Source: Spongiibacter tropicus DSM 19543
GTDB lineage: Bacteria; Pseudomonadota; Gammaproteobacteria; Pseudomonadales; Spongiibacteraceae
Assembly (NCBI RefSeq): GCF_000420325.1
Contig: NZ_ATUS01000001.1
Span: 934,463 to 998,462 of the forward strand
DNA: 64,000 nt
Reading direction: 5' to 3'
A model generated the notes under the pieces. The model was not told where the DNA came from, did not search any database, and saw only the letters and a program-made list of their open reading frames with translations. The translations under genes were made by a program, and so were the position numbers. This document shows positions 44,089 to 62,221 of this stretch, piece after piece; position 1 is the first letter of the stretch; each line of letters begins with the position of its first letter.

Positions 44089-44865
44089 TCAGCCCTGCTT
44101 GGGGCCGCCGTTTTCACCCAGCCAGCGGGAACCGCCGATGGTGTCAGAAAACGGGGTGAACGCGTCAGCATCCAGAGCCCCTTCGAGAGTCAGGCGGCGA
44201 TCCAGAAAGATCGGTGACCACAGCCAGGCCTCGGGCTCACTGCGCACCGGCAGCTCGCTGGCGAGCGGGTCCCAGGGACTCGGATTGAGCGTCAGCTGCC
44301 CCTGCAGCTTCTCGATCTGCGCCGTGCCGTATTTGGAGTACACGCGCACCACGTGCGGCGGAAAATCCCAGGTCACGTTCTCTGCCGTCGAGTCCACGCC
44401 TCTCAGCTGTTTAATCCACCACTCATTGGTTTCAAACTCCGGCGGAATTTCACCCGGCCCGGTCACCTGTCCTTTGAACTCCAGAAAGGTGTAGCCCCGG
44501 TGAGTGACTTTTGCGGAGATAAAATCCATCAGCCGATAATACTGGGTTTCCGCATAGTACTTCGGCTGTCCCCAGCGTTCCTGGCTGATGTAGATAGCGG
44601 CTTCCTGATCAATGGCAATGCCAAGTGTGTACTCGCCCTCAATGCCGTTGTACTCGGCATCGACATTCACCACGCAACCGTACTCGGGCTCATTGAGCAC
44701 CGGAAAATTGTAGATGGTAATGGTGACGCCCGGCTGCTTGCCGGGATTAATGCCCGGCGGCAGCAGCTTGGCAATGCTGGCGGGGTCGCTCATGTAGCGA
44801 ATCTTCAACATAGGCCAGTTGAGGATATCTCCCGGCTTTCCCATGATAGCGCTTGTCTCACTCAT
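44089..44865 (-). CDS. Acetoacetate decarboxylase-like protein
   Basis: 258 residues of the acetoacetate decarboxylase superfamily. The Schiff-base lysine is probably Lys102 in ERWGQPKYYAE. The neighbouring second lysine of true decarboxylases is replaced by Tyr103, so the reaction may differ. Strongly coupled in context with a Rieske oxygenase, an SDR and a P450; a role in degradation of a ring compound is inferred. The start has GAGGGA upstream and lies 57 bases after the Rieske stop. Confidence 0.8.
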   Translation of the reverse strand: MSETSAIMGKPGDILNWPMLKIRYMSDPASIAKLLPPGINPGKQPGVTITIYNFPVLNEPEYGCVVNVDAEYNGIEGEYTLGIAIDQEAAIYISQERWGQPKYYAETQYYRLMDFISAKVTHRGYTFLEFKGQVTGPGEIPPEFETNEWWIKQLRGVDSTAENVTWDFPPHVVRVYSKYGTAQIEKLQGQLTLNPSPWDPLASELPVRSEPEAWLWSPIFLDRRLTLEGALDADAFTPFSDTIGGSRWLGENGGPKQG

Positions 44866-44922: not shown

Positions 44923-45897
44923 TTATGCGGCGTAGAACTGATCAAACCATTTACGGTAACGGGCAATCGGACCATCGCCGTCGCAGAGTGTGGGCTCTTC
45001 GAGATACACCTTGTTCTCCCAGATCGGAATGTCCTGACCGACCTGCCGCACAATTTCGTCGCGGAACGCATTGGCGTAGAGCGTGTGCTCTGAGGTTTGC
45101 TGTTTGGGCATGCTGAAGCTAAAGCGCATGTGGATATTCTGATCGTCAATCGGCGTAATGGTCCCCATCATCACAATGTCGAACATCCGCGAGAATTTCT
45201 GAAAGGTCTGACCCGGCCCAAAGGAATAAGTCTCCAACCGCCCCTGGTCATAGTTTTCACCGCTCAGGTCGACATTGCCCTGCTCGTCGATGGCGTGCTG
45301 CTGACTGTCCATGATGGTCCAGCGTCGATAGCCCTCAATCGTCACCTTGCCGTCAGGCATTTCCGGCGAACCATGCACTGTGACAAAGTGCGCGATATCC
45401 ACCGCATTCTCGCCGGTTTCCTGAATAATGGAATTGATCTGCCAGTCGTAGGTGTCCATGGGCGTCCACTCGTCAGAGTGCAACTCGGCGTGGCGCTCCA
45501 CTTCCCACATCGGCGCGGCACCCTCGGGGTGGTACCAGGCCCAGATCATCTGATTGACCTCAACCACCGGGTAGCGGCCAATGGCCTGCTTATCGACCAC
45601 CTTAGGCGGCATATTCTTGGCATAGGGCACCTTGGTACAGAAGCCGCGGCCATCGAATTCCCAGGCGTGAAAGGGACAGGCGATGTTCTCGCCATGGACT
45701 TCGCCACCGTGCCCGAGGTGGGCACCAAGGTGGGGACAGTGGGCATCGAGAATCACTGCCTCACCCGACTCAGTGCGAAACAGCACCAGATCTCGACCAA
45801 AGTAGGTCAGGGGTTTCACATCCTTCGGCGCCAGATCCTTGCTGTATTCAATGGCAAACCAGCCGCACGGGATGGGCTTGTTATATCTATTATTCAT
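44923..45897 (-). CDS. Rieske non-heme iron oxygenase, DAF-36/KshA-like
   Basis: 324 residues. The Rieske [2Fe-2S] ligands are Cys54/His56 and Cys74/His77 (HCPHLGAHLG, CPFHAWEFDG). The mononuclear iron site is near ENAVDIAHFVTVHG. The CPHLGAHLG/CPFHAWEFDGRG pattern and the 324-residue length are like cholesterol 7-desaturase and KshA-type steroid hydroxylases. The substrate cannot be read from the sequence. It needs a reductase, which is not in the window. The start has GGAGGGA upstream. Confidence 0.85.
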   Translation of the reverse strand: MNNRYNKPIPCGWFAIEYSKDLAPKDVKPLTYFGRDLVLFRTESGEAVILDAHCPHLGAHLGHGGEVHGENIACPFHAWEFDGRGFCTKVPYAKNMPPKVVDKQAIGRYPVVEVNQMIWAWYHPEGAAPMWEVERHAELHSDEWTPMDTYDWQINSIIQETGENAVDIAHFVTVHGSPEMPDGKVTIEGYRRWTIMDSQQHAIDEQGNVDLSGENYDQGRLETYSFGPGQTFQKFSRMFDIVMMGTITPIDDQNIHMRFSFSMPKQQTSEHTLYANAFRDEIVRQVGQDIPIWENKVYLEEPTLCDGDGPIARYRKWFDQFYAA

Positions 45898-46039
45898 GCT
45901 CCCTCCGAACCCTTATTCAAAAAAGGTAACTACGTTGTAAAAAAACTATATGGTTTACTTATTCGGGTCAAGAGGGCAGCGCTTAATTGCGGCAAGAAAG
46001 CGCTGGGGAGATCACATTGGGGAGAAGAAGGGGAAAAGC

Positions 46040-46648
46040 TCAGTCGTTGCGCAGCATGCTGGAAACAATAAACGCCCACAGTTCGCGGTAGCGGGATGGA
46101 GAGTCATACTCGGTGTCGTGCACCCAGTTCAAGGTAATGGCGTTCAGCATTCCCACCGTCACTTCCGCACAAAACGCCGTACTCAGCTCCGGCTTCAGCA
46201 CCTCGCGATGGTGTTCGTAAAAGCGCAGGAAAATACTGTTGATAAAGGCGAGCTGCCCCGCCCCCTCATGAATATTCGCCGCCAGTGCGCCCACCGAGAA
46301 GGCGATCAGCTCCCGCTCAACCCCACCGGCTCGCTGTTCACGGCGAATAAAGACATTGATCATGTCTTCAAGCTGTTCAGCGAAGGGCTTACCGCTTTCA
46401 ATGACCTCATCAATCAGCTTATCGGTGCCGCGCAGCAACTCCTCCTGACACAGCTCACTGATCAGTTCATTTTTGGTCGCGTAGTAGTTGTAGAAGGTTT
46501 TTTTCGCGATATCGACACAGTCGCAGATCGCATCAATTGTCAGCCCTTCAACGCCGTGTCGACCAATCAGCCGAAGGCTTTCCGCGCGAATCGCTTCTCT
46601 TACTGCTTTCTTCTTCCGCTCGCGACGCCCAAGTTGACTTACCGGCAC
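46040..46648 (-). CDS. TetR-family regulator of the oxidation locus
   Basis: 202 residues from a GTG at 46648, chosen for its AAGGAG at six bases; the ATG at 46720 gives 226 residues and is the main alternative. The DNA-binding domain has RERKKKAVREAIRAESLRLI and the helix-turn-helix ICDCVDIAKKTFYNYYATK. The C-terminal ligand domain is unrecognised. It lies at the end of the SDR and Rieske region and probably represses the divergent SDR/P450 promoters through the inverted repeat at 47705-47726. Confidence 0.85.
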   Translation of the reverse strand: MPVSQLGRRERKKKAVREAIRAESLRLIGRHGVEGLTIDAICDCVDIAKKTFYNYYATKNELISELCQEELLRGTDKLIDEVIESGKPFAEQLEDMINVFIRREQRAGGVERELIAFSVGALAANIHEGAGQLAFINSIFLRFYEHHREVLKPELSTAFCAEVTVGMLNAITLNWVHDTEYDSPSRYRELWAFIVSSMLRND

Positions 46649-46741
46649 CGGCTTCTCCTTATTCTTCGCCAAAGCGCCGGATAGTAGCGCATGATCGGCG
46701 AGCACGTCACCGTCTGCCATTATGACGTGCCCCCGGTGCGC

Positions 46742-47620
46742 TTACAGAACATTCGGCGGCGTGGGCGTCGTGCCCTCCAAAATACTCTGGGTACGCGCGA
46801 CAAATGCGGCACGGGACTTCTCGGACATTGGCGAAATCCAGAACTTCTCGGCGCGGATGCCGTTCAGCGCAAACGCCGCCACCTCCTCGGGTTCGGTGGT
46901 CTTCAGCTCCATGTCGTACTGCGCCATGATGGCTTTCATGTCGTCGACCGAATGAATGCCCGAATCCGGTTTATTCGGATCGACCGGCAAATCCTGCGGG
47001 CGATTGCGCTCGGAATTGAAAATACCGGTGTTCACCACATTCGGGCCGGGAAACAGGGCGTTGACCTTTACCGGTGATTGCTGCGCCTGCAGTTGGTAGT
47101 GCAGATTCTCGGTAATCGCCTGAACAGCCGCTTTCGTGGCGGTGTAGATAGGCGTATCCGGCAACACCAGAAATGCCCCGTTGCCGGAACCGGTCACCAC
47201 AAAATGCGCCTCTTCGCCCTGCTCGACCAGCTTCGGTAAAAAGGCGTTAATGGTGTGGATCAGGCCCCAGGTATTCACCCGAAAGCCCCACTCCCAGTCG
47301 TTGAGGTTGTAGTCCCACATATTGCCGCCTTCGCCGGTGCCGACACCGGCATTGGCAAAGACCAGGTGAACAGCGCCGAATTTTTTCCAGGCGGCCTCGG
47401 CCAGCGCCTGCATCGATGCCGGGTCGGTCACATCGGCGCGCTGCCCCAGGCACTCGCAACCCATTTCTGTCAGTTCTGCCACACCGCGCTCAAGCGCCTG
47501 CGTCTCAATGTCTGCAATCACGACTTTGGCGCCCTCATTGGCCAGCGCCAGTGCCAGTGCGCGCCCGACACCACTGGCGCCGCCGGTGATCACCGCCACC
47601 TTGTTATTGAACTCCTGCAT
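46742..47620 (-). CDS. Short-chain dehydrogenase/reductase
   Basis: 292 residues. Rossmann motif TGGASGVGRALA, active site with Ser in GSGNGAF and Tyr-x3-Lys in YTATKAA, and the NAG motif FANAGVG. It uses NAD(P)H to oxidise or reduce an alcohol/ketone, and it appears to be the partner of the P450 and Rieske enzymes in a catabolic route for a cyclic terpenoid or steroid (inference). GAGGAG before the ATG. It is divergent from the P450 gene, 173 bases apart. Confidence 0.92.
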   Translation of the reverse strand: MQEFNNKVAVITGGASGVGRALALALANEGAKVVIADIETQALERGVAELTEMGCECLGQRADVTDPASMQALAEAAWKKFGAVHLVFANAGVGTGEGGNMWDYNLNDWEWGFRVNTWGLIHTINAFLPKLVEQGEEAHFVVTGSGNGAFLVLPDTPIYTATKAAVQAITENLHYQLQAQQSPVKVNALFPGPNVVNTGIFNSERNRPQDLPVDPNKPDSGIHSVDDMKAIMAQYDMELKTTEPEEVAAFALNGIRAEKFWISPMSEKSRAAFVARTQSILEGTTPTPPNVL

Positions 47621-47704
47621 GACAACTCCTCGATCTATTTAGGCTTATTATTTCGAACAGCGGATTGAAGCGTTTCGGCAACTACAAAAATCTCACTTGA
47701 GAAT

Positions 47705-47726
47705 AAAGATACACGGTAGTATCTTT
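47705..47726. promoter_or_regulatory. Inverted-repeat operator between SDR and P450
   Basis: AAAGATAC-ACGGTA-GTATCTTT: perfect eight-base arms with a six-base spacer, centrally placed between divergent genes, 68 bases before the P450 ATG. The size and symmetry suit a TetR-family operator. Confidence 0.6.
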
Positions 47727-47793
47727 TTTGCAAACCGGTATTGCAGAGCGCAGGCCCGGCTGCGCGCCAACAATAATGACAAGGAGCAAAGCA

Positions 47794-49044
47794 ATGCTGC
47801 AGGAAGAACAACAGAGCCAACTGCCGCCCATTGAAACCCTGTTCAATCCGAATTCCATGGAGTACGCGCTGGATCCCGGACCTCAGTGTCAGGCGCTCTC
47901 GGAACGTGGCCGACTGGTCTGGTATGCGCCGTGGATGTGCTGGATCATGACCCGTATGCCCGACATCATGGAGTGCTGGAAACAGGAGTACCTGAGTTCC
48001 GACTTTTACGATTGGGAATTCGCTCCGCCGCGCCCCACCGAAGAAAGCTGGACCAACTTTGAAAAAGCACTGGTGGGCCACAGCCTGCTGGCGGACCCGG
48101 ACCACCATCGCCTGATTCGCAAAATCACCTCACCGGCGTTTTCACGGAACGTCGTCGATAACATCAACCGCCGTATTGAGCCCGACATACAGCGCCTGTT
48201 TAAGGAACTGGGCGACGTGGAAGAGTTCGACTACATCGAACAGGTCGCCAAGCACATTCCGTTTATTTCCATTACCCGCATGGTCGGCATTCCCGAAAAA
48301 TACTGGCCGCAAATCAAACAGACCGTGCTCACTTTTACCGAGACCTGGAATCCCACGATTTCGGAAGAGCGCCGCGCCAAGGCGCAGGAAGACAGCAACC
48401 GTGCCATCGACATCCTGCTTGAGGTGATTGCCGAGCGCCGCGCCTCCCCCGGCGGCGAGGAAGATTTTCTCAGCGCCCTGTTGAAAGTCGAGGCCGAAAA
48501 CGACGATTTCGACGAGTGGGATATTGTGACCCTGATCCTCGCCCTGATCGGCGCCGGTGCTGACACCACGCTGGTCGCACAACAGTGGTCGGCCTACGCC
48601 CTGCTCACTAACCCGGATCAGGTGCCGCTGGCGCTTGAATCGACGGCCGCATTCTCTAACGCCTTCAGTGAGATCATGCGCTGGGCTGCCAACTCCAAAA
48701 TGGGCTTTGCCCGCTATATCCCCGAAGACCGAGAGCTATTGGGCCAACAGGTGAAGAAGGGGCAGATGGTATTGATGATGCCGCACCTGAAGGATCACGA
48801 TCCCAACTTCTTCGACAAGCCTAACGATCTGGATGTGCGCCGCCACTTCGATCCCGATGTGCTGTTCGGCTACGGCCCGCGCTATTGCATCGGTGCAGCA
48901 CTTGCCAAGCACCAGCTCTATCTGAGCATGAGCGAATTGTTCAAGCGCTTCCCCAATGCCAGTCTGGCGGAGGAACCCGAGCGCGACCTGGAAGACCACA
49001 ACAGCATCACCTTCAAGTCACTACGGGTGAAAACCGGCCTGTAA
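47794..49044 (+). CDS. Cytochrome P450
   Basis: 416 residues from the ATG at 47794 with AAGGAG upstream; an upstream extension is not supported. The heme-ligand cysteine is Cys365 (FGYGPRYCIGAAL), the I-helix has AGADTT (Asp257-Thr259) and the ExxR pair is Glu293/Arg296. It uses a ferredoxin and reductase that are not visible in the window. Bacterial class I size. Together with the SDR and the Rieske oxygenase it suggests hydroxylation of a steroid, terpene or fatty acid. The substrate is unknown. Confidence 0.95.
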   Translation: MLQEEQQSQLPPIETLFNPNSMEYALDPGPQCQALSERGRLVWYAPWMCWIMTRMPDIMECWKQEYLSSDFYDWEFAPPRPTEESWTNFEKALVGHSLLADPDHHRLIRKITSPAFSRNVVDNINRRIEPDIQRLFKELGDVEEFDYIEQVAKHIPFISITRMVGIPEKYWPQIKQTVLTFTETWNPTISEERRAKAQEDSNRAIDILLEVIAERRASPGGEEDFLSALLKVEAENDDFDEWDIVTLILALIGAGADTTLVAQQWSAYALLTNPDQVPLALESTAAFSNAFSEIMRWAANSKMGFARYIPEDRELLGQQVKKGQMVLMMPHLKDHDPNFFDKPNDLDVRRHFDPDVLFGYGPRYCIGAALAKHQLYLSMSELFKRFPNASLAEEPERDLEDHNSITFKSLRVKTGL

Positions 49045-49129: not shown

Positions 49130-50584
49130 ATGAGTCCAGCGCCACGCGGCACAGTCATTGTTGCCCTGATCCCACTGTTACTCGTTCTGCTGTTGCTTGG
49201 CATTAACGTCGCCCTGTACGGCGACGCCGGGATTGAGGGCGCCAACCAGCTCGCCCTGCTATTGGGCGGCGGCCTCGCCGCGCTGATCGGTCTGCGCCGG
49301 GGCCTGCACTGGCGCGAGCTTCAAGAGGGAATGCTCAAAGTCGTCGGTGTGGCTATTGTGCCGATGATGATGTTGCTGCTGATCGGCGCGCTGTCCAGCA
49401 CCTGGACCGTCGCGGGCATCGTGCCCACGCTGATTTACTACGGCCTGCAATTGGCAGACCCTGCGTGGTTCTACGCGGGCGTGGCCGTTGTCTGTGCCAT
49501 CGTCTCTACCGCCATCGGCAGCTCATGGACGACCGCCGCCACCCTCGGCATTGCCATGATGGCCACCGGTGCGGGACTGGGCATGAGTGAAACCATCACC
49601 GCCGGGGCCGTTATTTCCGGTGCCTATTTCGGCGACAAGCTGTCGCCACTGTCAGACACCACCAACCTCGCCGCGGGCGTCTGCGGTGTCGAACTGTTCA
49701 GCCATGTGCGCTACCTGGCACTGACCACCCTGCCCTCCTTTGCCATCGCCCTGCTGATCTTCCTCGCCATTGGCCTGCAACACAGTGGCAACGGCGCCAT
49801 CGTGCAGGCCGACATTATGCTCAAGGCCCTCACCCACAGCATGGTGATTTCCGGCTGGCTGTTGCTGGCCCCGTTGCTGGTTGTAATTCTTATCGTTCGC
49901 CGCGTCCCGGCCCTGCCAGTGATGTTTATCGCCACCTTGCTGGGCAGCCTGCTGTCTGCACTGGTGCAGCCCGATATTGTTCAGCAGATCGGCGGCAGTG
50001 ACGACTGGCTGGGAATGTATCGAGGACTGGTGCAGACGATTGTTGGCGACAGCCAGATTGAAACCGGCCATGAATTCAGCAATGAACTGCTCAGCAGCAG
50101 CGGCATGGCAGGGATGCTCAATACAATCTGGTTGATACTCTGCGCCGTGGTTTTCGGCGGTCTGATGGAGGCCTCTGGCCTGCTCGGGGATATCACCTCC
50201 GCGCTGAAACGCGTGGCACGTAACCGCACGGCGCTGGTTGCGACCACAGCGGGCAGTTGCGGCATTCTCAATCTGACCGCCGCCGAACAGTACCTGACGA
50301 TTCTGATCAGTGGGCGCATGTACGGCGATCTGTACCGGCAGCACGGTCTCAGTCCGCGCAATCTCAGCCGCACGCTCGAAGACGCCGGTACAGCCACATC
50401 GGTTCTGGTTCCCTGGAATACCTGCGGCGCGTTTCACGCTACCGCCCTAGGCGTCGCCACCCTCAGCTACCTGCCCTTCTGCTTCTTCAATCTGATCAGT
50501 CCGCTGATGTCGATGCTCTACATGCGCTTCAACATCGCTATTGAGGAATACCCCGCGCCTCAGGAAAGTGACGCGCATAGATAG
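49130..50584 (+). CDS. NhaC-family Na+/H+ antiporter
   Basis: 484 residues with about twelve membrane helices. The central motif ISGAYFGDKLSPLSDTTNLA is the NhaC family signature; the sodium site includes the Asp of GDKLSP and SDTTN. Exchanges sodium for protons, or possibly another substrate such as malate/lactate. The C-terminal half (GTATSVLVPWNTCGAFHA) also fits the family. The last 25 bases overlap the convergent phosphopantetheinyl transferase gene. Confidence 0.92.
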   Translation: MSPAPRGTVIVALIPLLLVLLLLGINVALYGDAGIEGANQLALLLGGGLAALIGLRRGLHWRELQEGMLKVVGVAIVPMMMLLLIGALSSTWTVAGIVPTLIYYGLQLADPAWFYAGVAVVCAIVSTAIGSSWTTAATLGIAMMATGAGLGMSETITAGAVISGAYFGDKLSPLSDTTNLAAGVCGVELFSHVRYLALTTLPSFAIALLIFLAIGLQHSGNGAIVQADIMLKALTHSMVISGWLLLAPLLVVILIVRRVPALPVMFIATLLGSLLSALVQPDIVQQIGGSDDWLGMYRGLVQTIVGDSQIETGHEFSNELLSSSGMAGMLNTIWLILCAVVFGGLMEASGLLGDITSALKRVARNRTALVATTAGSCGILNLTAAEQYLTILISGRMYGDLYRQHGLSPRNLSRTLEDAGTATSVLVPWNTCGAFHATALGVATLSYLPFCFFNLISPLMSMLYMRFNIAIEEYPAPQESDAHR

Positions 50585-51294
50585 GTGAACACCACTCCGT
50601 CGCAGCATTGCCAATGGACGGTGAATCGCTGCCCGCAACGCTCGGGATGCTGACAGCGCAGCAACTCCAGCTCCATGCATTGCTGCTCGGGCAAAAAGCG
50701 CTTCAAGCTCACGTCGAGAAAATCGACATAGTGCCGGAGTGCCGGGAACAGCGCTTTGTAGAGACTTTCTTTTGCCGAAAACAGAATACTGATGGCCTCG
50801 GCCTCCGGCATACCGCTCTCTCTGAGCAATCGTCGCTCAGAAAGATGGCCGACCAGCCCCGCTACCTCGCGACAAACCTCCGGCCTCATCACCCTCTCCA
50901 GGTCGATACCGGGAAAGCCCTCCCGGCTGACTATGCACAAGGCGTGATCCCCGTGGTGACTGATCGCGCCCTGCAATCCCGGCGGCCACAGCACTTCTCC
51001 GGAGGCGCCGCGCAAGGGTGCGACCTCATCGGCCCCGGCCATCGCCAGTGCCTGACGCGCAGCACAGCGCCCCGCCAGGTAATCGGCACAGCGCGAGTCC
51101 TTCGCGCCCGCCAGCTTGGCAGGCATGGCTATATCCAGCAGTTCGAACAGTGCCGGTCGGTAATGATTTACGTCGAACTGGCAAATCACCGCCTGCTGAG
51201 CCGTGCCCGGCAGATCGAGCAATGAAAACCTTTTCAGGAAAGGATCGTAGGGAAGACGCGATGGAGTGTCTGTGTTCGCCAGCGCGCTCAGCAT
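50560..51294 (-). CDS. 4'-phosphopantetheinyl transferase, EntD-like
   Basis: 244 residues of the EntD family. The signature residues are FPGIDLERV (magnesium-binding Asp) and FSAKESLYKALFP (the second motif with Glu and Lys), and ISHHGDHALCIV binds coenzyme A. It converts apo-carrier domains to the holo form. Six bases downstream of the glycosyltransferase stop, so it forms part of the NRPS operon and probably activates the T domain at Ser1034 of the NRPS. The C terminus overlaps the antiporter gene. Confidence 0.93.
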   Translation of the reverse strand: MLSALANTDTPSRLPYDPFLKRFSLLDLPGTAQQAVICQFDVNHYRPALFELLDIAMPAKLAGAKDSRCADYLAGRCAARQALAMAGADEVAPLRGASGEVLWPPGLQGAISHHGDHALCIVSREGFPGIDLERVMRPEVCREVAGLVGHLSERRLLRESGMPEAEAISILFSAKESLYKALFPALRHYVDFLDVSLKRFLPEQQCMELELLRCQHPERCGQRFTVHWQCCDGVVFTYLCASLS

Positions 51295-51300
51295 GCCCTG

Positions 51301-52590
51301 CTAAGCGGCCGAGCCGGCGAGTTGAAAGTCGGGCATACCCGGCAACAACTGCCAGCGCTGTAGCTGGGCAATGGCCTCATCGACGCCGTCTTCGGCGCGG
51401 ATGCGCTGCCCCAGCTCCGCCGCCTTATCCTGACAAGGCGCGGTCAGCGCGTAGCGCAAGGCTTCCGTGGCCGAATCCACACTCAGGGTCTTGCGAGTGA
51501 CGGCAGCGGGCGCCGCGCCGAGGCTGGCAAGCCGCCAGGCCCAGAACGGCTGATCGCCGAAAAAGGGCATCACCACCGATGGCACACCCGCCTTCGCTGC
51601 AGCCGCAGTAGTGCCCGCGCCGCCGTGGTGGACCGCCGCCGCCACACGGGGAAACAGCCAGTCATGAGGCGCGGCACTCAGGCAGAATATCTGCGCGTCA
51701 TCGACGGCCGTGAGCCCTCCCCAGCCCGTGGCAAAAATGCCGCGCTGCCCGGTATTACGCAAGGCCTGGCGCCAAATATCGCTGAGCCGCTGCGCATCGC
51801 CCCCCAGCATGCTGCCAAAACCGACATAGACCGGCTTCGGCCCGGCAGCGAGGAATTCACTCAGGGCGAGGGGCGGTTGCCAGCGCTCGCCTTCATCCAA
51901 AAACCAGTTGCCCGCCACCTTGACGTTCTCGGGCCAATGGGGAGACGGCGGAATCAGGCTCGGGCTGAAACCATACAGCACCCGGTGGGGCAGTTTGCGC
52001 CGGTAAAACGGCCCGTACCACGGCAGCGGTGGCAGCTTGAGCTGCTCGCGAACCGCGGCATATGCGGGCGCCATCATTTGCCAGGTCAGTACCCGACAAG
52101 CGTGATAGAGCCCCTGATTAATCACGCCGGGTCGCGGCCGCTGAGGCGGCGGCAACATCATCGGCGGAATGTCCGGACAGGGGCTCACCGGCTGTAGATG
52201 GGTTTCTACCATCGGAATATCAAAGCGTTCTGCCAGTGCCGATGCCAGCGCAGCCACCATGCCGTTGCCCATCAGCAAGCTGGCACCCCGCGCCGCGCTC
52301 ATCGCCTGTTCCGGCCAGTCTGCCGACATGGCCTTGAGTTCCCGGCGGGCCGTTTTCAGCAGTGCCAGGGGGTTCAAGCCGCGCTGCAGCACTTCCGGAT
52401 CTCTGGCCATCACTTCGAGAAAGTCGGCGGTCAGCGGCGCGTAATCCAATCCGCTGTCGCGCACCAATGCCTCACAGCTTTTGCCGGTGGCGATGCACAC
52501 CCGGTGACCCTTTGCCTGCAGACCAACACCCAGTGCCACAAAGGGGCGTACATCGCCCTGCGTACCGATAGAAAAAATGCAGATATTCAC
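51301..52590 (-). CDS. Family-1 (MGT-type) glycosyltransferase
   Basis: 429 residues from a GTG whose first bases overlap the NRPS stop (GTGA). GT-B fold: the N-terminal acceptor domain begins MNICIFSIGTQGDVRPFVAL, and the C-terminal nucleotide-sugar domain has the PSPG-like box VHHGGAGTTAAAAKAGVPSV and MPFFGDQPFWA. It transfers a sugar from a nucleotide-activated donor to a lipid or natural-product acceptor; relatives glycosylate antibiotics and sterols. The NRPS product is the obvious candidate acceptor because of translational coupling. Confidence 0.92.
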   Translation of the reverse strand: MNICIFSIGTQGDVRPFVALGVGLQAKGHRVCIATGKSCEALVRDSGLDYAPLTADFLEVMARDPEVLQRGLNPLALLKTARRELKAMSADWPEQAMSAARGASLLMGNGMVAALASALAERFDIPMVETHLQPVSPCPDIPPMMLPPPQRPRPGVINQGLYHACRVLTWQMMAPAYAAVREQLKLPPLPWYGPFYRRKLPHRVLYGFSPSLIPPSPHWPENVKVAGNWFLDEGERWQPPLALSEFLAAGPKPVYVGFGSMLGGDAQRLSDIWRQALRNTGQRGIFATGWGGLTAVDDAQIFCLSAAPHDWLFPRVAAAVHHGGAGTTAAAAKAGVPSVVMPFFGDQPFWAWRLASLGAAPAAVTRKTLSVDSATEALRYALTAPCQDKAAELGQRIRAEDGVDEAIAQLQRWQLLPGMPDFQLAGSAA

Positions 52591-55500
52591 GAGGCCTCCC
52601 GCAGGCCACTCAGCAATGCCGCGGCAATCTGCGGACCAATTTCAGCCAGCGGTCCGGCCTCCAGCATCGCCTGGTGATGACAATTCACCGGATGTACATG
52701 CAGGCCTGCCACCTTGTCGTGCCACACGCTCGGACAATGCTGGATGCTTTCGGAACGCGCTGTATCCAGTGCCTGGAAGAAGTGCATGGGCACATCCACC
52801 GCGCCCGGTGCAAAGCCTTGCAACAGCGACAGGTTATTCGCAATCACCGCCGCCACATCTTCCAACAGGTTGCTGTGCTGATCCTGCAAGCCTTTGACGA
52901 TATCCATATTCAGCACATCGTACTCCCGGCACAGGAAGTCGCTCATCTCTGCCATGGAGGCTGGCGCACGCGCGGCGTCCAGACCGAGGAAATCGACAAT
53001 ACCCAGCGCGACCTCCGCTTCACTGGCACCGTTTTCCAACTTGAAGGGGTAGGCATCGAGTACCCCCAGGAAACCGACCGACTCGCCACTGTCGCGAAGT
53101 TGACGCGCCATTTCCTGCGCCACAATACCGCCCATGGACCAGCCCAACAGGCGGTAGGGGCCACTGGGCTGAATCTGGCGAAGCTGGAAAATATAGTCGG
53201 CGGCCACTTCTTCAATGCTGCCGGGCAGCTCTGCCTGTCCATCCAGTCCCCGCGACTGCAAACCATACAGCGCCGTGTCTTTGCCCAGGTACTGCCCCAG
53301 ACCAGCAAAGCCCCAGCTCAGCCCCAGCACCGGGTGAATACAGAACAGTGGCTCCCCTTCGTGGCGGGCGGCAGCCGTATTGAGGGTCTGGCAGCAAGCC
53401 AGCGGGTCCAGTTGCGAACCCCGTTGCAGGTGTTCGGCCAGTTCGGCAATGGTGGTGGCCTCAAACGCCGCTGCCAGTGGCACATCGCGCCCCAACAGCA
53501 GGCGCAGACGAGCAACCATCCGCGCGGCGGTGAGCGAATCGGCGCCCAGATCGAAGAAGCTGTCGTGCACACCAATGCGATCCAGCTGGAAAATCTCGCA
53601 CCACAGCTCCGCAAGCTTTTCCTCCAGCGGTGTGCGTGGCGCCGTGTACTCGCTCAGACACTGCCAATGGGGCTCGGGTAAGGCCTTGCGATCGAGCTTG
53701 CCGTTAACATTCAGCGGCAGGTCGCTCACCAGTTCGTAGTGCGACGGCAACATGTAGTCAGGCAGGCTGGTCTCGATCTGCAAGCGCAAGGCTGAGGCCT
53801 GCAGCGCTTCGCTGTCGGCATCAAAACCCTCTTCGGGAAGCAGATAGGCCACCAGTCTCGGCTGCCCGGCTGGATCTTTACGCAGGGCAACAGCGGCCCG
53901 GCGCACTCCGACACAACGCAGCAGATGGGTTTCGATTTCTTCTGTTTCCACCCGGAAGCCACGGATTTTAATCTGGAAGTCGTTGCGTCCGAGGTATTCC
54001 AATACCCCGTCGCGTCGCCAGCGGGCCTGATCGCCGGTTTTGTACAGGCGCCCCTCGCCGTAGGGATTGTCGACAAAGCGCTCAGCCGTCAAATCAGGAC
54101 GGTTGTGATAGCCCAGTGCCACACCTGCACCACCAATATACAACTCGCCGGGCACACCGGGCGGCAGCAGTGCCATCTTCTCGTCCAACACATAGACCTG
54201 TGTGTTGGCGATAGGTCGGCCGATAGGCGGTGCACTGTTGCCGATCTTGTCGAGAATCATCATCGTCGACCAGATCGTGGTCTCGGTGGGGCCGTAGAGA
54301 TTAACCAGTGGTTGACCGAGTCGGCGCATACGGTGAGCCAACTCGGTGGGAAGTGCCTCGCCACCCACCAGTGGACGAATCCCCTGCAGCACATCACCGT
54401 GCTCTTCCAGCAGCGCCTGCCAGTGTGAAGGGGTGGCCTGCAGAGTGGTAATGCCCTGCTTGGCAATCACCGCTGCCAACGCCGCCGGATCGCGGGCAAC
54501 ATCGCGACTGGCAATGTGCACGCGTGCGCCAGCCAGCATGGGCAGGAACAGCTCCAGCACCGCAATATCAAAGGACACCGTAGTGAGCGCCAGCAAGCTG
54601 TCGTCCGGCGTCAGCGACAGGGATTGCTGCATTGCCAGCAGGAAGTTCTGCAGCCCCAGGTGAGGCACCACAACACCTTTGGGACGCCCCGTCGAACCGG
54701 AGGTATAAATAATATAGGCGGGCATATCACCGGCAATCGCAACATCCGGCAATGCCCTGGCAGGGTAATCACTCAGCGTCAGCGATTCCCACAACAGACA
54801 GGGAACGCCCGTGTCTGGCAGGCCCTGCTGGCAGTCCTTGCTGCTCAGAATCAGGTCTGGCCGCGCATCCTCAAGAATCATCGCCACCCGCTCGGCGGGG
54901 GTGCCAGGGTCCAGTGGCAAATACGCCGCCCCGCTTTTCAGAATGGCCAGCAGCGCTGTCGGCAAACAATTTTCTCGGGGCAAGGCAACGGCGACGACCT
55001 TGCCCGGACCAATACCGCGTTCGCGCAGTAGCTGACACAGCGGGTTTACCCGATCCGCCAGCTCACGGTAGCTCATTACCGCCGACGCATCGCTGAGGAC
55101 CGGGCGATCGGCAAAGTGAGCAACACTTTGCTCAAACAACCCCGGCCAGAAAGCTGCAGGCAACGGCGACTCGGTGTCGTTCCAAGCCTGCAACTGGCTG
55201 CGACGCTCATCCGCCGACAACAGATCGAAGTCACCAATAGGGCTGTTCGGCGCCTGAATCATGGCCTCGACCAGACGACCGAGGCGGTCGCGATGCTCAT
55301 CCAGTTCCAACTGGCTGTACAGCGCCGGGTTGGCATCGATAACAATGTGCAGCCCCTGCTTTTCGCCACGGTCAAAGACAAACACGGTCATGTCTTCAAC
55401 AGTGCCATTGGAGAGGTTGTGAATACTGCAATGGTGGCCGCCGAAGCCAAAGTCATAATCAAAGGGCTCGATATTCACGCCCATCCAGGAAATCTGCTGG

Positions 55501-56636
55501 CCGCTGCCCAGCAGACCGAGATCGCGCCGCAGCTCTTCGTAGCGATACTGCTGATGGCGCAGCGCGCTGCGCACGACCTTGGCCGTCTGCCCCAGCAACT
55601 CGACAAGACTCTGCTCATCGCCCATCGCCAAGCGAATCGCCACGGCATTCGCCATCATCGACGGAATGCTGCGCAGACGACGATTCACCCTTGCCGTCAC
55701 CGGCATACCGAAGACCAGATCCTGTTGACCACTCATTCGATAGGTATACGCCGCCAGCATGCTGATCAACAGCTGCGGCACACTTCCCCCCGCCTGCTGT
55801 GCGATGTCACGCAACTGTGCGGAGCGCTCCAGCGACAGGACCAGCGCGCTGCGACGCAGGCCGCCGCTGCGCGGAGCACTGCGCTGCGACAGGGAAATGG
55901 CATCGGGCAGGCCGGCCAGTTGAGACTTCCAATAGTCGCGATCGCGCTCAATACGCGATGACTCCCGGTAGGCCTTTTCTTCTTCCAACTGCTGCACCAA
56001 CGGCAGAAACGGGCTTTCTCCGATGTCGCCGCCAGCGAGCAGGCCGTTATAGATATCCGCCAGACGACGGGCCAACAAACCGCCGCCAAAGCCGTCCAAG
56101 GTGATGTGGTGACAGCGCTGATACCAGAAATAACGCTGTTCAGATAACTTGATCAGTACGCCCAGCCAAAGGGCTTCTCGCTCCAGGTCCACGGGACGCG
56201 AGACCTCATCATTCATCCAGCGCAGAGCGTGCGCCTCTGCATCGTCTTCGGCGCTGAAATCGAGGAAAGGGAATTCACCCGGATACTGTTCATTGACTAA
56301 CTGGCGCGCACCCTCTGCGGTCTCCACAATCTGCACGCGGGTGGATTCCGCCTCTTTCGTGAGCAGCTGACTGGCTTTCAGAAACGTCGGCACATCGACG
56401 TCACCGCCAATATCCACATATTCAGCCAGCTTGTAGACCGCATCGCTGGGGCCGATTTTCTCACCCATCCACATGCCGCGTTGAGCACTTGCGATGGGTA
56501 GCAGTCGATTAAATGCCTCGTCATCCGATGGCGTAGTGCCTGGACGGCGGAAGGGTTCGGTGTTCAGCGGAGCAGGTCTTTCCCGTTTGCTCTGCGGCTT
56601 GTTGTAGTCCGTTTGTTGGGGCGGCGGCTGTTCCAT
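52587..56636 (-). CDS. Single-module NRPS (C-A-T-TE), predicted glycine-activating
   Basis: 1349 residues from the ATG at 56636; frame upstream is not supported. Domains: EntF-like condensation (about 50-480; HHITLDG at 176-182), adenylation (about 500-990; core YIIYTSGSTGRPKG, YGPTETTIW, NGKLDRKAL), carrier (Ser1034 in DLGADSL) and thioesterase (Ser1167 in GWSMGG; a late CHHQAML holds the likely histidine). By alignment with GrsA positions, the pocket reads D-I-L-Q-L-G-L-I-W-K, a classical glycine code. It should therefore load glycine, condense it with an unknown acyl donor and release it by the TE. No other NRPS, aryl-carrier protein or aryl acid pathway is nearby. Coupled to the glycosyltransferase and phosphopantetheinyl transferase. 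Confidence 0.95.
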   Translation of the reverse strand: MEQPPPQQTDYNKPQSKRERPAPLNTEPFRRPGTTPSDDEAFNRLLPIASAQRGMWMGEKIGPSDAVYKLAEYVDIGGDVDVPTFLKASQLLTKEAESTRVQIVETAEGARQLVNEQYPGEFPFLDFSAEDDAEAHALRWMNDEVSRPVDLEREALWLGVLIKLSEQRYFWYQRCHHITLDGFGGGLLARRLADIYNGLLAGGDIGESPFLPLVQQLEEEKAYRESSRIERDRDYWKSQLAGLPDAISLSQRSAPRSGGLRRSALVLSLERSAQLRDIAQQAGGSVPQLLISMLAAYTYRMSGQQDLVFGMPVTARVNRRLRSIPSMMANAVAIRLAMGDEQSLVELLGQTAKVVRSALRHQQYRYEELRRDLGLLGSGQQISWMGVNIEPFDYDFGFGGHHCSIHNLSNGTVEDMTVFVFDRGEKQGLHIVIDANPALYSQLELDEHRDRLGRLVEAMIQAPNSPIGDFDLLSADERRSQLQAWNDTESPLPAAFWPGLFEQSVAHFADRPVLSDASAVMSYRELADRVNPLCQLLRERGIGPGKVVAVALPRENCLPTALLAILKSGAAYLPLDPGTPAERVAMILEDARPDLILSSKDCQQGLPDTGVPCLLWESLTLSDYPARALPDVAIAGDMPAYIIYTSGSTGRPKGVVVPHLGLQNFLLAMQQSLSLTPDDSLLALTTVSFDIAVLELFLPMLAGARVHIASRDVARDPAALAAVIAKQGITTLQATPSHWQALLEEHGDVLQGIRPLVGGEALPTELAHRMRRLGQPLVNLYGPTETTIWSTMMILDKIGNSAPPIGRPIANTQVYVLDEKMALLPPGVPGELYIGGAGVALGYHNRPDLTAERFVDNPYGEGRLYKTGDQARWRRDGVLEYLGRNDFQIKIRGFRVETEEIETHLLRCVGVRRAAVALRKDPAGQPRLVAYLLPEEGFDADSEALQASALRLQIETSLPDYMLPSHYELVSDLPLNVNGKLDRKALPEPHWQCLSEYTAPRTPLEEKLAELWCEIFQLDRIGVHDSFFDLGADSLTAARMVARLRLLLGRDVPLAAAFEATTIAELAEHLQRGSQLDPLACCQTLNTAAARHEGEPLFCIHPVLGLSWGFAGLGQYLGKDTALYGLQSRGLDGQAELPGSIEEVAADYIFQLRQIQPSGPYRLLGWSMGGIVAQEMARQLRDSGESVGFLGVLDAYPFKLENGASEAEVALGIVDFLGLDAARAPASMAEMSDFLCREYDVLNMDIVKGLQDQHSNLLEDVAAVIANNLSLLQGFAPGAVDVPMHFFQALDTARSESIQHCPSVWHDKVAGLHVHPVNCHHQAMLEAGPLAEIGPQIAAALLSGLREAS

Positions 56637-57063
56637 CGTAGTCGTCTCTCGGCTAGGCAAATTTTTAAACAGACGAACTCTTCTCACGGCAAGCGGGAGT
56701 TCTTGGTCTGCGAAGTTTCTTATTATTGAGAAGGAACAGCGCGTGGCGTCGGCTTGGCTGTTCGTTAGGTCGATAATAGAGAGATAGGCGATTGGACAGG
56801 CGTGATACACATCACAGAGAAAACATGAAAATACGAATTTCCCCTTATTTTTCAATGCATTACTACACACTTACACCGAACTGTGACACACACAATAATG
56901 TAGAAATGTGCTGTAGTGGCGAGCAGAGGAACACCTTCCTCAAGGGAATCAATAAGTTATAACAAGAAGCAATATCATTACCAGAAGAGTCGCGGCGGAC
57001 AGGCAAAATGCTGACAGCAACGTCAAGAAAATAGACAAAAGGGTGACTGAAGAAAGAAGCCTA
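56637..57063. other. Leader region of the NRPS operon
   Basis: 427 bases between the NRPS and the sulfotransferase stop. It is AT-rich compared with neighbouring genes. It contains a CRP/Vfr-like site (56801-56816) and a poor Fur-like match (13 of 19) at 56964-56982. No gene is supported; the frame extending upstream of the NRPS start lacks a ribosome-binding site. Confidence 0.6.
56801..56816. promoter_or_regulatory. CRP/Vfr-like binding site
   Basis: CGTGA-TACACA-TCACA, nine of ten bases of the consensus TGTGA-N6-TCACA. It lies 165 bases upstream of the NRPS ATG, inside the AT-rich leader. Confidence 0.45.
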
Positions 57064-58071
57064 TCAGGCTGGCTTGGCGGCGCGCATTGCCTTATCAACC
57101 TGCCTGTTCAAGGATGCCTCATACGCCTTCAGAATCGGGTGCACTGAATGCCGGGGCTTCGCCGCACGCAAGCCCAACTCGTCGACATTGCGCAGGGATA
57201 AGTCCAGAAACTCCGCCAGCGCCGTCATTGTCTCGCCGGGGTTTTGCACCAGCTGTGCGTAGTCCACCTCTACGGCCTGATTGCCCGGCATCGCTGCCAG
57301 TTGTTGGCGATAACTGACGACTTCCCTGGCCACGTGTCTGGCCAGCATGGGCCGAGCGAGCAGCGCTATCGCCCGTTCTCCCAGCACTGCTCGCAGACCA
57401 CGCATCAACAACCAAATCAGGTAGCCCTTGCGATATCCCTTACGACCATTGCCTGTATCCAGCAGCATTTCCAAGTAGTGTTGAGGACCGTCGAGGTAGG
57501 CGAGAAATGCATTGAGCATGCTGTTTAACACCGCAATCGGTTCGCGACTGATATAAATGAACCGGGCTTGCTCATAGCGCCCGGCAATCCAGCGCGCATT
57601 CGCGGTATCCCAAGGGTTTTTGAGCAATACCGCTTCGCTGTCGGGTTCCAGGGCCAACAGCTTGCGGCACATTTCCTCAAACAGTGGCGCTGTATCATCA
57701 CTAAGCTTGAAACTGCCTCCCAATCGCCGCAGCAGAAAACCGTACTCTTCCACCTCATCGGCCGCGACCGGCACGCTGTCAATTTTGCGGTCGCGAATGC
57801 CCAGTGCCGCAAAACAGGCATCCAGTTTCCGCTGATCCACGTCTGCTTGTCCGTCTCTTGCGTTGCAGAGCAAGCGCCGATAGTAAAAAAGTCGGTAGAG
57901 GCTTAGCTGGGAAAGCGGGAAAGCACGGGCCACACTGTCGTAGAGAAACGTGGTGCCCGATCGGTGCAGGCCCATGATAAATACGGGCCGCACAGGCAAG
58001 CTGGCCAGCGGCGCAATCAGCTCACGATCTTCATCACTGCGGGGAAAATCGGGATCGACGGGGTATTGCAC
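57064..58071 (-). CDS. PAPS-dependent sulfotransferase family protein
   Basis: 335 residues from a GTG at 58071 with GGAGG at good spacing; a GTG at 58110 would add 13 residues. The 5'-phosphosulfate loop is FIMGLHRSGTTFLYD and the 3'-phosphate site includes YISREPIAVLNSM. This is the Sulfotransfer_3-like family, whose members sulfate carbohydrates, lipids or small molecules. It lies upstream of the NRPS in the same direction, 427 bases from it. The substrate is unknown; sulfation of the NRPS product is possible but not shown. Confidence 0.85.
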   Translation of the reverse strand: MQYPVDPDFPRSDEDRELIAPLASLPVRPVFIMGLHRSGTTFLYDSVARAFPLSQLSLYRLFYYRRLLCNARDGQADVDQRKLDACFAALGIRDRKIDSVPVAADEVEEYGFLLRRLGGSFKLSDDTAPLFEEMCRKLLALEPDSEAVLLKNPWDTANARWIAGRYEQARFIYISREPIAVLNSMLNAFLAYLDGPQHYLEMLLDTGNGRKGYRKGYLIWLLMRGLRAVLGERAIALLARPMLARHVAREVVSYRQQLAAMPGNQAVEVDYAQLVQNPGETMTALAEFLDLSLRNVDELGLRAAKPRHSVHPILKAYEASLNRQVDKAMRAAKPA

Positions 58072-58171
58072 AAACTCCTCCAGAGTGAGCAAGATGACTG
58101 GGCAGCACACTCTAGCGGATTAATGCATAAAAAATACCTACCCAGTCGCCGTTTTATGGCGAGAGCGGCAG

Positions 58172-59701: not shown

Positions 59702-62221
59702 TTATTGAAAACGGTAGCTGAATTCCACGCCCAGCTCGCGAGGCGTACCCGGCACCCGGTTCGCAACCCCAATCACGCTGGTCACCGCAATCCCCCCAAC
59801 GAAATAGGGCTCGTCTTTAATGTTGTTGACGTAGGCACCCAGCCCCATCTGCTCGTTGATTTCCCAGCGGACGCGCGCATTGTAAAGCTCGTACTGGCTG
59901 ACCGTTGAGCTGGCATAGTTGCCACTGAGGTAATCGGTGCCGATGAAGATCTCATCACTATAGTAGTACTGAAGCTGGGGCACGATCAGCCCGATAGGCG
60001 AATCCCAGTCATACTGAATATTCAGACCGCGCACGTTCTGCGGTACTTGGGGAAACGCCTCGCCACTGCGATCAACAATAGCGAAGCCGTCGTCGGTATT
60101 CGTGCCCAGGTTATATTCCAGGAAATCACCATCGGTATACCCGGCATTGGCGTTGATGGTGAACGGCCCCAGCAAGGCCGTCAGCTCAAGTTCAAAACCA
60201 TCAACCACCGCCTCACCGGCGTTACCGGTGAACTGTACTACTTCGGTATCGGTGGCGCCCACCTCATACAGTGCCACCTGCAAATCGGTGTAATCCATCT
60301 GATAGGCGGCAACATTGAAGCGCAGTCGGCGGTCAAAGGCATCCAGCTTGAAGCCGATTTCCTTGTTCAGCACCTGCTCGGGCTCGAACTGTTTAATCTC
60401 CGACTCAGTCTGTGTGGTACGCACATCGAGTCCGCCAGACTTAAAGCCCCTGCTCACCGTCGCATACACCATCAAGCTGTCCAAATTCAGCGATTCCAGC
60501 AGCTCATCCCCGGCCAGATAGTTCAGCGTCAAACTCGGCGTCCACTCTTCAAAGTCGGTGTCGCCACGCAGTTTGGGGCCAAAGATCAACGGCACCTCAG
60601 GCGCGTCATAGGCAAGATACTGGGCTCTGGAGACCGGAGAATAAATGCCGTCGCCCAGATGGAAAACCGGCGCCAGAATGGCGAGGTCACTGCCAATCTG
60701 TGCGTTCAGCCGGCTGGCATATTCGCCGTAATCCGGCGTGCCCTGCACATGCACCGACGCCCGCTCCTCTTCGGTGTAACGCACCCCAAGTGTCAGCTGC
60801 CAGTTCTCAGCCAGATCCAGGGTTCCCTGAGCAAAGGCGGCCTTGGTGGTATTCTCATAGTCGGCGATGTTAACCATGTTCGCCTGCACCGGTAACACCG
60901 CCAGTGCCGAGATGGGAATATCGATGCCGACAGCCCCCTCCGGCTTGATTGCGACCAGACCATTGTCACCCACCTCGGTACCGTCCAGAGCATTGTCGAG
61001 AGACTCTTCTGCGTAGAACAGGCCGAAGGTGTAGTTCAGGCGCTCATCCCAGGCGCTGCCGTTAAACTTAATCTCTTGCGAAAACTGCTCGCGCTTGGCA
61101 TCGCCAACGGTTTTGTCCGAGCCGTTCAGCACCTGATAGCCCGCAGCGGGCCCTACTGCAACGGCGCGAATACCGGTGCCATCGGAGTCCCCCCCGATGT
61201 AAATATTGTCCTGCATGGCGTAGCTGGTAATGCTCTCAATATCCAGCCAGTCAGAAACCGGCGCCCGCAGCGTCAAGGCAATCATGTGATTGTCGATGGC
61301 ATACACGCTGTCTTCGGGGTTGAGGCTGACTTCAAAGTCCTTGGCCTGTGCCGAGCTGGCATCACAGGCTTCTTCAAGACTCATATCTTCGGCGCCGCGA
61401 TACACCCCCGAGGTCAGAATGGCGCCATTGTTCTGGAAGGCACAATTGTAGGGCGAACCGCGCTCATCAATTCGGCTGAGGAAACCAAACAGGTCCACTT
61501 CTACATCATCATTCACATACCAGATCAGCCGCGACGACAGCGCCATGCGGTCTTGATCAAACAGCGCGTTATTCGCCGCAGTATTATCGATTGAGCCATC
61601 GCTGCGCTTGCTGTTAAACGCCACGCGCACGGCAAGGTCATCGCTGATTGGCAGGTTGGCGTCCAGTTTGACGTTTTGCTGACCGTAGCTCCCTGCCCCG
61701 AGTTTTACACCGAATTCATAGCCGTCGGTGAAAGGCTTTTTCGAATCCACCAGAATCGCGCCACCGACATTGTTCTTGCCGAACAATGTGCCCTGAGGGC
61801 CACGCAGCACCTGAATAGACGCGACATCAACGGCATCCAGCAACTGGGCGTCGGAGCGCGGTACGTAGATACCATTGAGGTACATGCCGACACCCGGGTC
61901 CAGCACCGGGTTGCCCGAACGCTGCCCCACACCGCGAATGAAAATGGCAGGCGCTTTGTAGTTGGTCTGGGAAAACTGCAGACTGGGCGCCAGGGTTTCC
62001 ACATCTTCTATGTCGCTGATACCCATGTAGTCGAGCATATCGCTGCCCAGCGCAGAGACCGCCACGGGTGTGTCCTGCAAACTTTCCTCACGCCGCCGCG
62101 CAGTGACAACAACCTCTTCAAGCATCACCCGGCTGTCAGCTTGCGCGAAACTCGGCGTCGCAAATAATGCCGACACGGCCGAAACGGCCAGGGGAAGAAG
62201 TAAGGGGGCTTTCGTTTTCAT
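59702..62221 (-). CDS. TonB-dependent outer-membrane receptor
   Basis: 839 residues with a signal peptide (LPLAVSAVSALFATPSFA), a TonB box (EEVVVTARRREESLQDTP), the plug domain (IQVLRGPQGTLFGKNNVGGA), and the beta-barrel ending in a C-terminal aromatic residue (GVEFSYRF plus Gln). It is of the same class as the receptor at 11064-13595. It transcribes towards the M20, sulfotransferase and NRPS genes, 69 bases from the M20 start, and could take up a substrate of these enzymes. The ligand is unknown. Confidence 0.95.
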   Translation of the reverse strand: MKTKAPLLLPLAVSAVSALFATPSFAQADSRVMLEEVVVTARRREESLQDTPVAVSALGSDMLDYMGISDIEDVETLAPSLQFSQTNYKAPAIFIRGVGQRSGNPVLDPGVGMYLNGIYVPRSDAQLLDAVDVASIQVLRGPQGTLFGKNNVGGAILVDSKKPFTDGYEFGVKLGAGSYGQQNVKLDANLPISDDLAVRVAFNSKRSDGSIDNTAANNALFDQDRMALSSRLIWYVNDDVEVDLFGFLSRIDERGSPYNCAFQNNGAILTSGVYRGAEDMSLEEACDASSAQAKDFEVSLNPEDSVYAIDNHMIALTLRAPVSDWLDIESITSYAMQDNIYIGGDSDGTGIRAVAVGPAAGYQVLNGSDKTVGDAKREQFSQEIKFNGSAWDERLNYTFGLFYAEESLDNALDGTEVGDNGLVAIKPEGAVGIDIPISALAVLPVQANMVNIADYENTTKAAFAQGTLDLAENWQLTLGVRYTEEERASVHVQGTPDYGEYASRLNAQIGSDLAILAPVFHLGDGIYSPVSRAQYLAYDAPEVPLIFGPKLRGDTDFEEWTPSLTLNYLAGDELLESLNLDSLMVYATVSRGFKSGGLDVRTTQTESEIKQFEPEQVLNKEIGFKLDAFDRRLRFNVAAYQMDYTDLQVALYEVGATDTEVVQFTGNAGEAVVDGFELELTALLGPFTINANAGYTDGDFLEYNLGTNTDDGFAIVDRSGEAFPQVPQNVRGLNIQYDWDSPIGLIVPQLQYYYSDEIFIGTDYLSGNYASSTVSQYELYNARVRWEINEQMGLGAYVNNIKDEPYFVGGIAVTSVIGVANRVPGTPRELGVEFSYRFQ

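Follow-up and report, generated by a model that had tools for sequence, protein, structure and literature searches.

A sulfotransferase-associated peptide synthetase and glycosyltransferase cassette in Spongiibacter with a probable anionic glycine-glucolipid-type product

In the genome of Spongiibacter tropicus DSM 19543 we analyzed a stretch of 64,000 nucleotides (contig NZ_ATUS01000001.1, positions 934,463 to 998,462; hereafter the window), in which four genes follow one another on the minus strand in the order of transcription: a sulfotransferase (SULT; 57064..58110), a one-module nonribosomal peptide synthetase (NRPS; 52587..56636), a GT1-type glycosyltransferase (GT; 51301..52590) and an EntD-like 4'-phosphopantetheinyl transferase (PPTase; 50560..51294). 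A first-pass annotation of this DNA had described the last three as a compact operon, and their placement was confirmed: the NRPS stop codon and the GTG start of the GT at 52590 share four bases (GTGA), and a gap of 6 bases separates the GT from the PPTase. That annotation overlooked the conserved SULT upstream, with which the conserved unit in fact begins. The NRPS gene encodes 1349 amino acids from the ATG at 56636 to the TGA at 52587; its reading frame is open as far upstream as a GTG at 56870, and the alignments with 13 other NRPS homologues from the same genus begin only at residues 40-45 of 1349, which leaves the exact start unsettled by homology. The GT and the PPTase (ATG at 51294) are 429 and 244 amino acids long, both assigned by Pfam, and the SULT is 348 amino acids long from its called GTG, most of its homologues aligning from residue 7-18 onward.

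Pfam profiles resolve the NRPS into a single module comprising a condensation (C) domain (55197..56501, residues 46-480), an adenylation (A) domain (53697..55136, residues 501-980, with the AMP-binding part at 501-844 and its C-terminal domain at 900-980), a carrier or PP-binding (T) domain (53427..53621, residues 1006-1070) and a thioesterase (TE) domain (52617..53351), for which the Pfam match covers residues 1096-1200 and the extent to about residue 1340 is our extrapolation. The catalytic motifs are intact, as previously claimed: the HHxxxDG motif of the C domain (HHITLDG), the A3 motif, the carrier serine (FFDLGADSL) and the Ser/Asp/His of the TE are all present. The ten positions of the A-domain pocket, read at the usual core motifs, again gave DILQLGLIWK, which we take to be a glycine code, and the form DILQLG(L/V)(I/V)WK, comprising glycine-type variants, is kept in 15/15 aligned SULT-linked NRPSs, the window included. 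Across a wider set of 38 NRPSs, 18 have DILQLGLIWK, 6 have DILQLGLVWK, 4 carry further DILQLG variants and 10 have different codes. These observations support the prediction of a glycine-type A domain.

The top-scoring NCBIfam models for the NRPS are MxcG (710 bits, cut-off 2300) and EntF (706 bits, cut-off 2400), both of them far short of their cut-offs, and the EntF structure 5ja1 is among its relatives in the PDB. In a midpoint-rooted tree of 32 C domains, that of the window belongs to a group of 28 that also includes EntF of E. coli and, from a two-module NRPS of Variovorax, the first C domain; these two proteins are the only named references. The group is set apart, with support of 100/99, from four domains taken to be in elongation position. 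The four are the second C domain of the Variovorax protein, the Streptomyces domains L006_07_C2 and L007_11_C1, and L064_02_C1; L007_11_C1 and L064_02_C1 are the first C domains in their own reading frames and were classed as elongation domains since other NRPS genes precede them. The tree thus provides modest evidence that the C domain is of the initiating type, with an acyl or aryl donor, in line with the EntF-like assignment made at first pass. In five NRPSs from the family of Lysobacter (L138 and L145-L148), the first histidine of the HHxxxDG motif is replaced by asparagine or serine.

The GT matches the Pfam domains EryCIII-like_C, Glyco_transf_28 and UDPGT, and carries an HHGGAGTT...FFGDQ segment; its closest solved structures are a sterol 3-beta-glucosyltransferase (5xvm, 1.3e-49) and GtfB (1iir, 4.8e-37). 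The PPTase contains the 4PPT_N and ACPS domains and scores 84 bits with the NCBIfam EntD model, under its cut-off of 169.

The SULT matches the Pfam domain Sulfotransfer_3 (PF13469) at 1.5e-17 and 65 bits (cut-off 27). The same domain is detected at E<=0.01 in all 15 aligned SULT proteins (from 14 genomes of the genus and from G320, a genome of another family), across which a GLHRSGTT loop of the type that binds 3'-phosphoadenosine 5'-phosphosulfate (PAPS) is invariant. A search of the PDB with the single SULT sequence gave no match, and a profile of the 15 sequences gave weak matches only, the best being a guanylate-binding protein (E 0.0007), followed at 0.001-0.004 by tyrosine sulfotransferases, two chains labelled 'putative uncharacterized protein' and the CurM sulfotransferase. 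Formation of PAPS needs adenosine 5'-phosphosulfate (APS) kinase, and the presence of this enzyme in 18/18 genomes of the genus means that all of them probably have a supply of the sulfate donor.

We searched 390 genomes of the order for the NRPS (E<=1e-100) and for the GT (E<=1e-40), scoring two candidates per genome for the former and at most four for the latter, so that absence from either search alone says little; the SULT was sought at E<=1e-30 across the 18 genomes of the genus. Both NRPS and GT were matched in the genome of the window and in 13 of the 16 other genomes drawn from the genus, where the NRPS homologues are near full-length (48-69% identity) and have the GT adjoining. This recurrence argues that the locus is not a chance assembly of genes. 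The SULT is found in 15 of the 18 genomes and adjoins the NRPS and GT in every one of them, with the order SULT-NRPS-GT on one strand in the window, in those 13 genomes and in a further one (G390). The three other genomes (G272, G291 and G378) gave no match to NRPS, GT or SULT in the searches of the order and the genus; an agreement of 15 versus 3 would have a probability of 1/816 were the genomes independent, which, being related, they are not. The genes beyond the set vary in most loci, with two genomes (L003 and L005, of which L040 and L041 are duplicate copies) retaining the flanks of the window and a third (L049) part of them, so that the set acts as a cassette.

Within the set, the PPTase is conserved least: a homologue of 30-42% identity lies downstream of the GT in 13/15 set-bearing genomes, the window included, and L051 and L055 gave no PPTase match above 60 bits at that place. 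Weaker neighbour matches (below 60 bits in loci of the genus, below 50 bits in those of the Lysobacter family) are unlisted and could hide diverged PPTases. Hence, of the three-gene order proposed earlier, the NRPS-GT pair is kept, with the PPTase following it less regularly. Across 16 loci (the genus and G320), the four-base overlap of NRPS and GT is confined to the window, L049 and a paralogous pair in the same genome (L050), with the junction in the remaining loci lying at about -10 to +94 bases as measured from the nearest start codon; over the relatives as a whole it spans -10 to +97 bases. This paralogous pair (G000:C1:804808-810011; L050:8009-13221) consists of a glycine-type one-module NRPS (53%) and a GT (58%), and is followed by a regulator of the LuxR family.

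Relatives outside the genus are scattered. In G320 the NRPS-GT pair again has an adjoining SULT, in divergent orientation. Elsewhere in the order, G125 has NRPS kin and a GT of 47% identity (L092) far apart in its genome, G344 has NRPS kin but yielded no GT in the order-wide search at E<=1e-40, and G114 and G142 have weaker GT matches (30-40%; L093-L095) with no NRPS kin among the reading frames there. A class-wide GT search at E 1e-40 returned 1/369, the window's own, and it says little on the rarity of the GT, having missed holders in the family of Lysobacter. In Lysobacter antibioticus the NRPS kin (46%) and GT kin (50%) are on separate contigs, and in its family as a whole the GT is present at E<=1e-40 in 56/247 genomes, at 57 places. 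We read 21 of these, all from among the 33 with at least 44% identity over most of the query; 19 of the 21 have a one-module NRPS (40-48% identity) directly upstream of a GT of 44-49% identity, the exceptions being L099 and L133, and none of the 21 stretches gave a SULT or PPTase match above 50 bits. The NRPS and GT trees each split the Lysobacter-family sequences from the lineage of the window, as would be expected of a co-inherited pair; several branches are long, the inner order is in part unsettled and not the same in detail between the two, and a quick method was used for the NRPS. More distant NRPSs were also noted on plasmids. A Variovorax paradoxus plasmid (CP063167.1, 9025-18070; L155) encodes a two-module NRPS with a first module 45% identical to the window's NRPS and, judged by eye, a reductase-like domain at its end, followed by a GT1 gene (25% to the window's GT) and an MbtH gene. 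A Pseudosulfitobacter plasmid (NZ_CP085162.1, 9025-12999; L154) carries an NRPS of this kind (39%) that stands alone, next to transposases of the IS110 and IS30 types; no GT was matched in the stretch read.

The first-pass annotation knew of no characterized system with exactly this gene set, a statement that passes over a study of Xanthomonas albilineans (PMC3849588, BMC Genomics 2013), the available portion of which describes the same architecture. According to that portion, one-module C-A-PCP-TE genes (PCP, peptidyl carrier protein) share 4 or 8 bp with a GT gene in the pairs XALc_0364/0365 and XALc_1145/1144; XALc_0364 has a glycine signature and both have starter-type C domains. G983, which likewise has two NRPS-GT pairs, was considered as a candidate for X. 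albilineans, an identity that we do not claim since the junction distance computed for L147 disagrees with the published 4-base overlap. For the glycine pair the authors predicted a product in which glycine is joined with a glycosyl residue and a beta-hydroxycarboxylic acid, and an excerpt of PMC4584326 repeats that in Xanthomonas no precise function had been attributed. The portion of PMC3849588 also reports a contiguous PPTase (ABO_1782), GT (ABO_1783) and short NRPS (ABO_1784) in Alcanivorax borkumensis SK2. The glycolipid of this species is glucosyl-tetra(3-hydroxyacyl)-glycine (PMC10710537, in excerpt); a trimeric aglycone, 10:0(3)-gly, is reported along with minor alanine and diglycine forms in the accessible text of PMC10684412, where it is suggested that the glycine linkage is made first and glucose is added last. 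The glucoselipid operon of PMC12299268, as far as its excerpt goes, is unrelated.

Taken together, these observations lead us to propose, with a probability of roughly 0.6, that the product of the four genes is an anionic glycolipid, of the glycine-glucolipid type and most likely sulfated. On this view the PPTase would activate the carrier domain and the A domain would load glycine, to the amino group of which the initiating C domain would link an acyl group, probably a 3-hydroxyacyl from coenzyme A or an acyl carrier protein. The TE would then free the N-acylglycine, the GT would glycosylate the acyl chain at its free hydroxyl, with glucose as the probable sugar, and the SULT would move sulfate from PAPS to the sugar or to a hydroxyl. 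In this scheme we infer the acyl chain, the identity of the sugar, the sulfation and its site, the order of the steps and a surface-active role. Of the sugar-decorated N-acyl- or N-aryl-glycine envisaged at first pass, the N-acyl type is the most likely and the N-aryl type is weakened, as two diagnostic enzymes of the 2,3-dihydroxybenzoate (DHB) route score under their cut-offs (see below). The set works like the short NRPS-glycosyltransferase pairs described before and probably belongs with them. What is added here is the sulfotransferase; its constant presence beside NRPS and GT suggests that the lipid is made in a sulfated form, the sulfation being a proposal. A bolder form, in which sulfation is obligatory and co-inherited and the products constitute a previously undescribed class of lipids, namely sulfated glycosyl N-acylglycines from Spongiibacter-like marine bacteria, is a tentative idea that may well be wrong. 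The loci point to a compact family of surfactant type whose members can be recognized by sequence, and the set of relatives provides material for testing how one NRPS module yields a glycine-glucolipid, the biosynthesis of which had not been elucidated as of 2023 (PMC10710537, in the part available).

Several points weigh against this proposal. The SULT and NRPS genes are separated by 427 bases, and the SULT may be transcribed apart from the NRPS. The AlphaFold model of the SULT, built from three rows, is unusable (mean predicted confidence, pLDDT, of 38), so that structure gives no hint of its acceptor. In the genome-search alignments, the SULT of G252, the GT of G212 and the NRPS of G343 are each flagged for a stop codon in frame. 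The GT matches PDB rhamnosyltransferases at 3e-4 to 8e-4 only, while ABO_1783 is termed RhlB-like in the excerpts of PMC10710537 and PMC6223728. The likeness to ABO_1782-1784 is one of published description, and in the portions of the literature examined no knock-out links these genes to the lipid, nor is any product of the genus described. In the open-licence literature, queries on Spongiibacter NRPS, on sulfotransferase with NRPS and glycosyltransferase, on Spongiibacteraceae gene clusters and on the ABO numbers returned no paper on the window's set.

The spacing of the SULT is also relevant to a simpler view, that the locus makes a surfactant like that of Alcanivorax, a glycosylated N-acylglycine, and that the SULT is merely a neighbor serving another pathway. 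The 427 bases exceed the gaps within the operon, and there is no SULT match beside the paralogous pair of the same genome (which has no PPTase match either) or beside the 19 Lysobacter-family NRPS-GT pairs in the stretches read. A neighbor of this sort would hardly be expected to adjoin NRPS and GT in 15/15 set-bearing genomes of the genus while genes outside the set vary, to be unfound in the three genomes lacking NRPS and GT matches, and to recur beside the pair in G320 of another family, even if divergently oriented; we therefore regard this view as unlikely. The sequence relationships also recall catechol siderophores, which may bear a sugar, as in the salmochelin modification, and an N-aryl-glycine or siderophore-type product resembling DHB-glycine with a sugar would agree with EntF and MxcG for the NRPS and EntD for the PPTase being the top NCBIfam matches, all below cut-off, and with a TonB receptor at 59702 in the window. 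Moreover, the NRPS kin of G344 (L054) and G125 (L056), with 44-45% identity (45% in G344) and the glycine code, have no adjoining GT match and lie, judged by eye, beside genes resembling iron ABC transporters, which further counts against a glycolipid; the G344 locus also has, by eye, an EntE/isochorismate-synthase-like pair. However, in the 18 genomes of the genus neither diagnostic enzyme exceeds its curated cut-off, the best scores being 243 of 724 bits for the DHB-AMP ligase and 185 of 225 bits for isochorismate synthase, with weaker matches to both in all 18, and a TonB receptor of close similarity (79%) is confined to the two genomes represented by L003/L005 and L040/L041 among the loci read. 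With both enzymes below cut-off in 18/18 genomes we favor an acyl over a catechol donor and consider a siderophore-type product improbable.

Near the set lies a catabolic-looking group of genes encoding a P450 (47728-49044), a short-chain dehydrogenase/reductase (SDR; 46742-47620), a Rieske-type protein (44923-45897) with a weak likeness to 4beta-methylsterol monooxygenase (65 bits against a cut-off of 600) and, as a weak match, an acetoacetate-decarboxylase-like protein (44089-44865). Such genes at 43-49 kb, of which the P450, SDR and Rieske protein span 44923-49044, could be taken together with the resemblance of the GT to sterol glucosyltransferases to mean that the cassette serves to conjugate an acid of external origin, such as one of sterol or bile type, with glycine, sugar and sulfate. 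P450 and SDR homologues, though, are present in the stretches read around the cassette in only 3/14 other genomes of the genus (L003/L040, L005/L041 and L049), on which ground we dropped these neighbors from the system; conjugation of an exogenous acid is accordingly a very remote prospect.

Among known systems, EntF shares with the window's NRPS the C-A-T-TE layout and the initiating C domain, and together with MxcG is its best relative among curated models. The EntF equivalog, however, is defined by 2400 bits and a serine code, as against 706 bits and a glycine-type code in the window, and EntF-like homologues of other families have DVWH(F/M)SLVDK, which we take to be of the serine type. The rhamnolipid enzymes RhlAB offer a working analogy in that a GT glycosylates a hydroxyacyl lipid; they differ in that no RhlA-type gene is among the window's four, for which an NRPS-made, amide-linked glycine is proposed instead. 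The Lysobacter-family pairs differ from the window in that some have non-glycine codes and their stretches gave no PPTase or SULT match. The Xanthomonas pairs, as described in the available part of PMC3849588, are alike in their single C-A-PCP-TE module, gene of about 4 kb, GT overlap at the 3' end and starter-type C domain. ABO_1782-1784 of A. borkumensis, from the same source, differ in that no sulfotransferase is mentioned there, the lipid reported in the excerpts is without sulfate and the GT is RhlB-like; yet they represent the same three gene types in a contiguous arrangement, and the species makes a product of glycine and glucose that matches the type predicted here.

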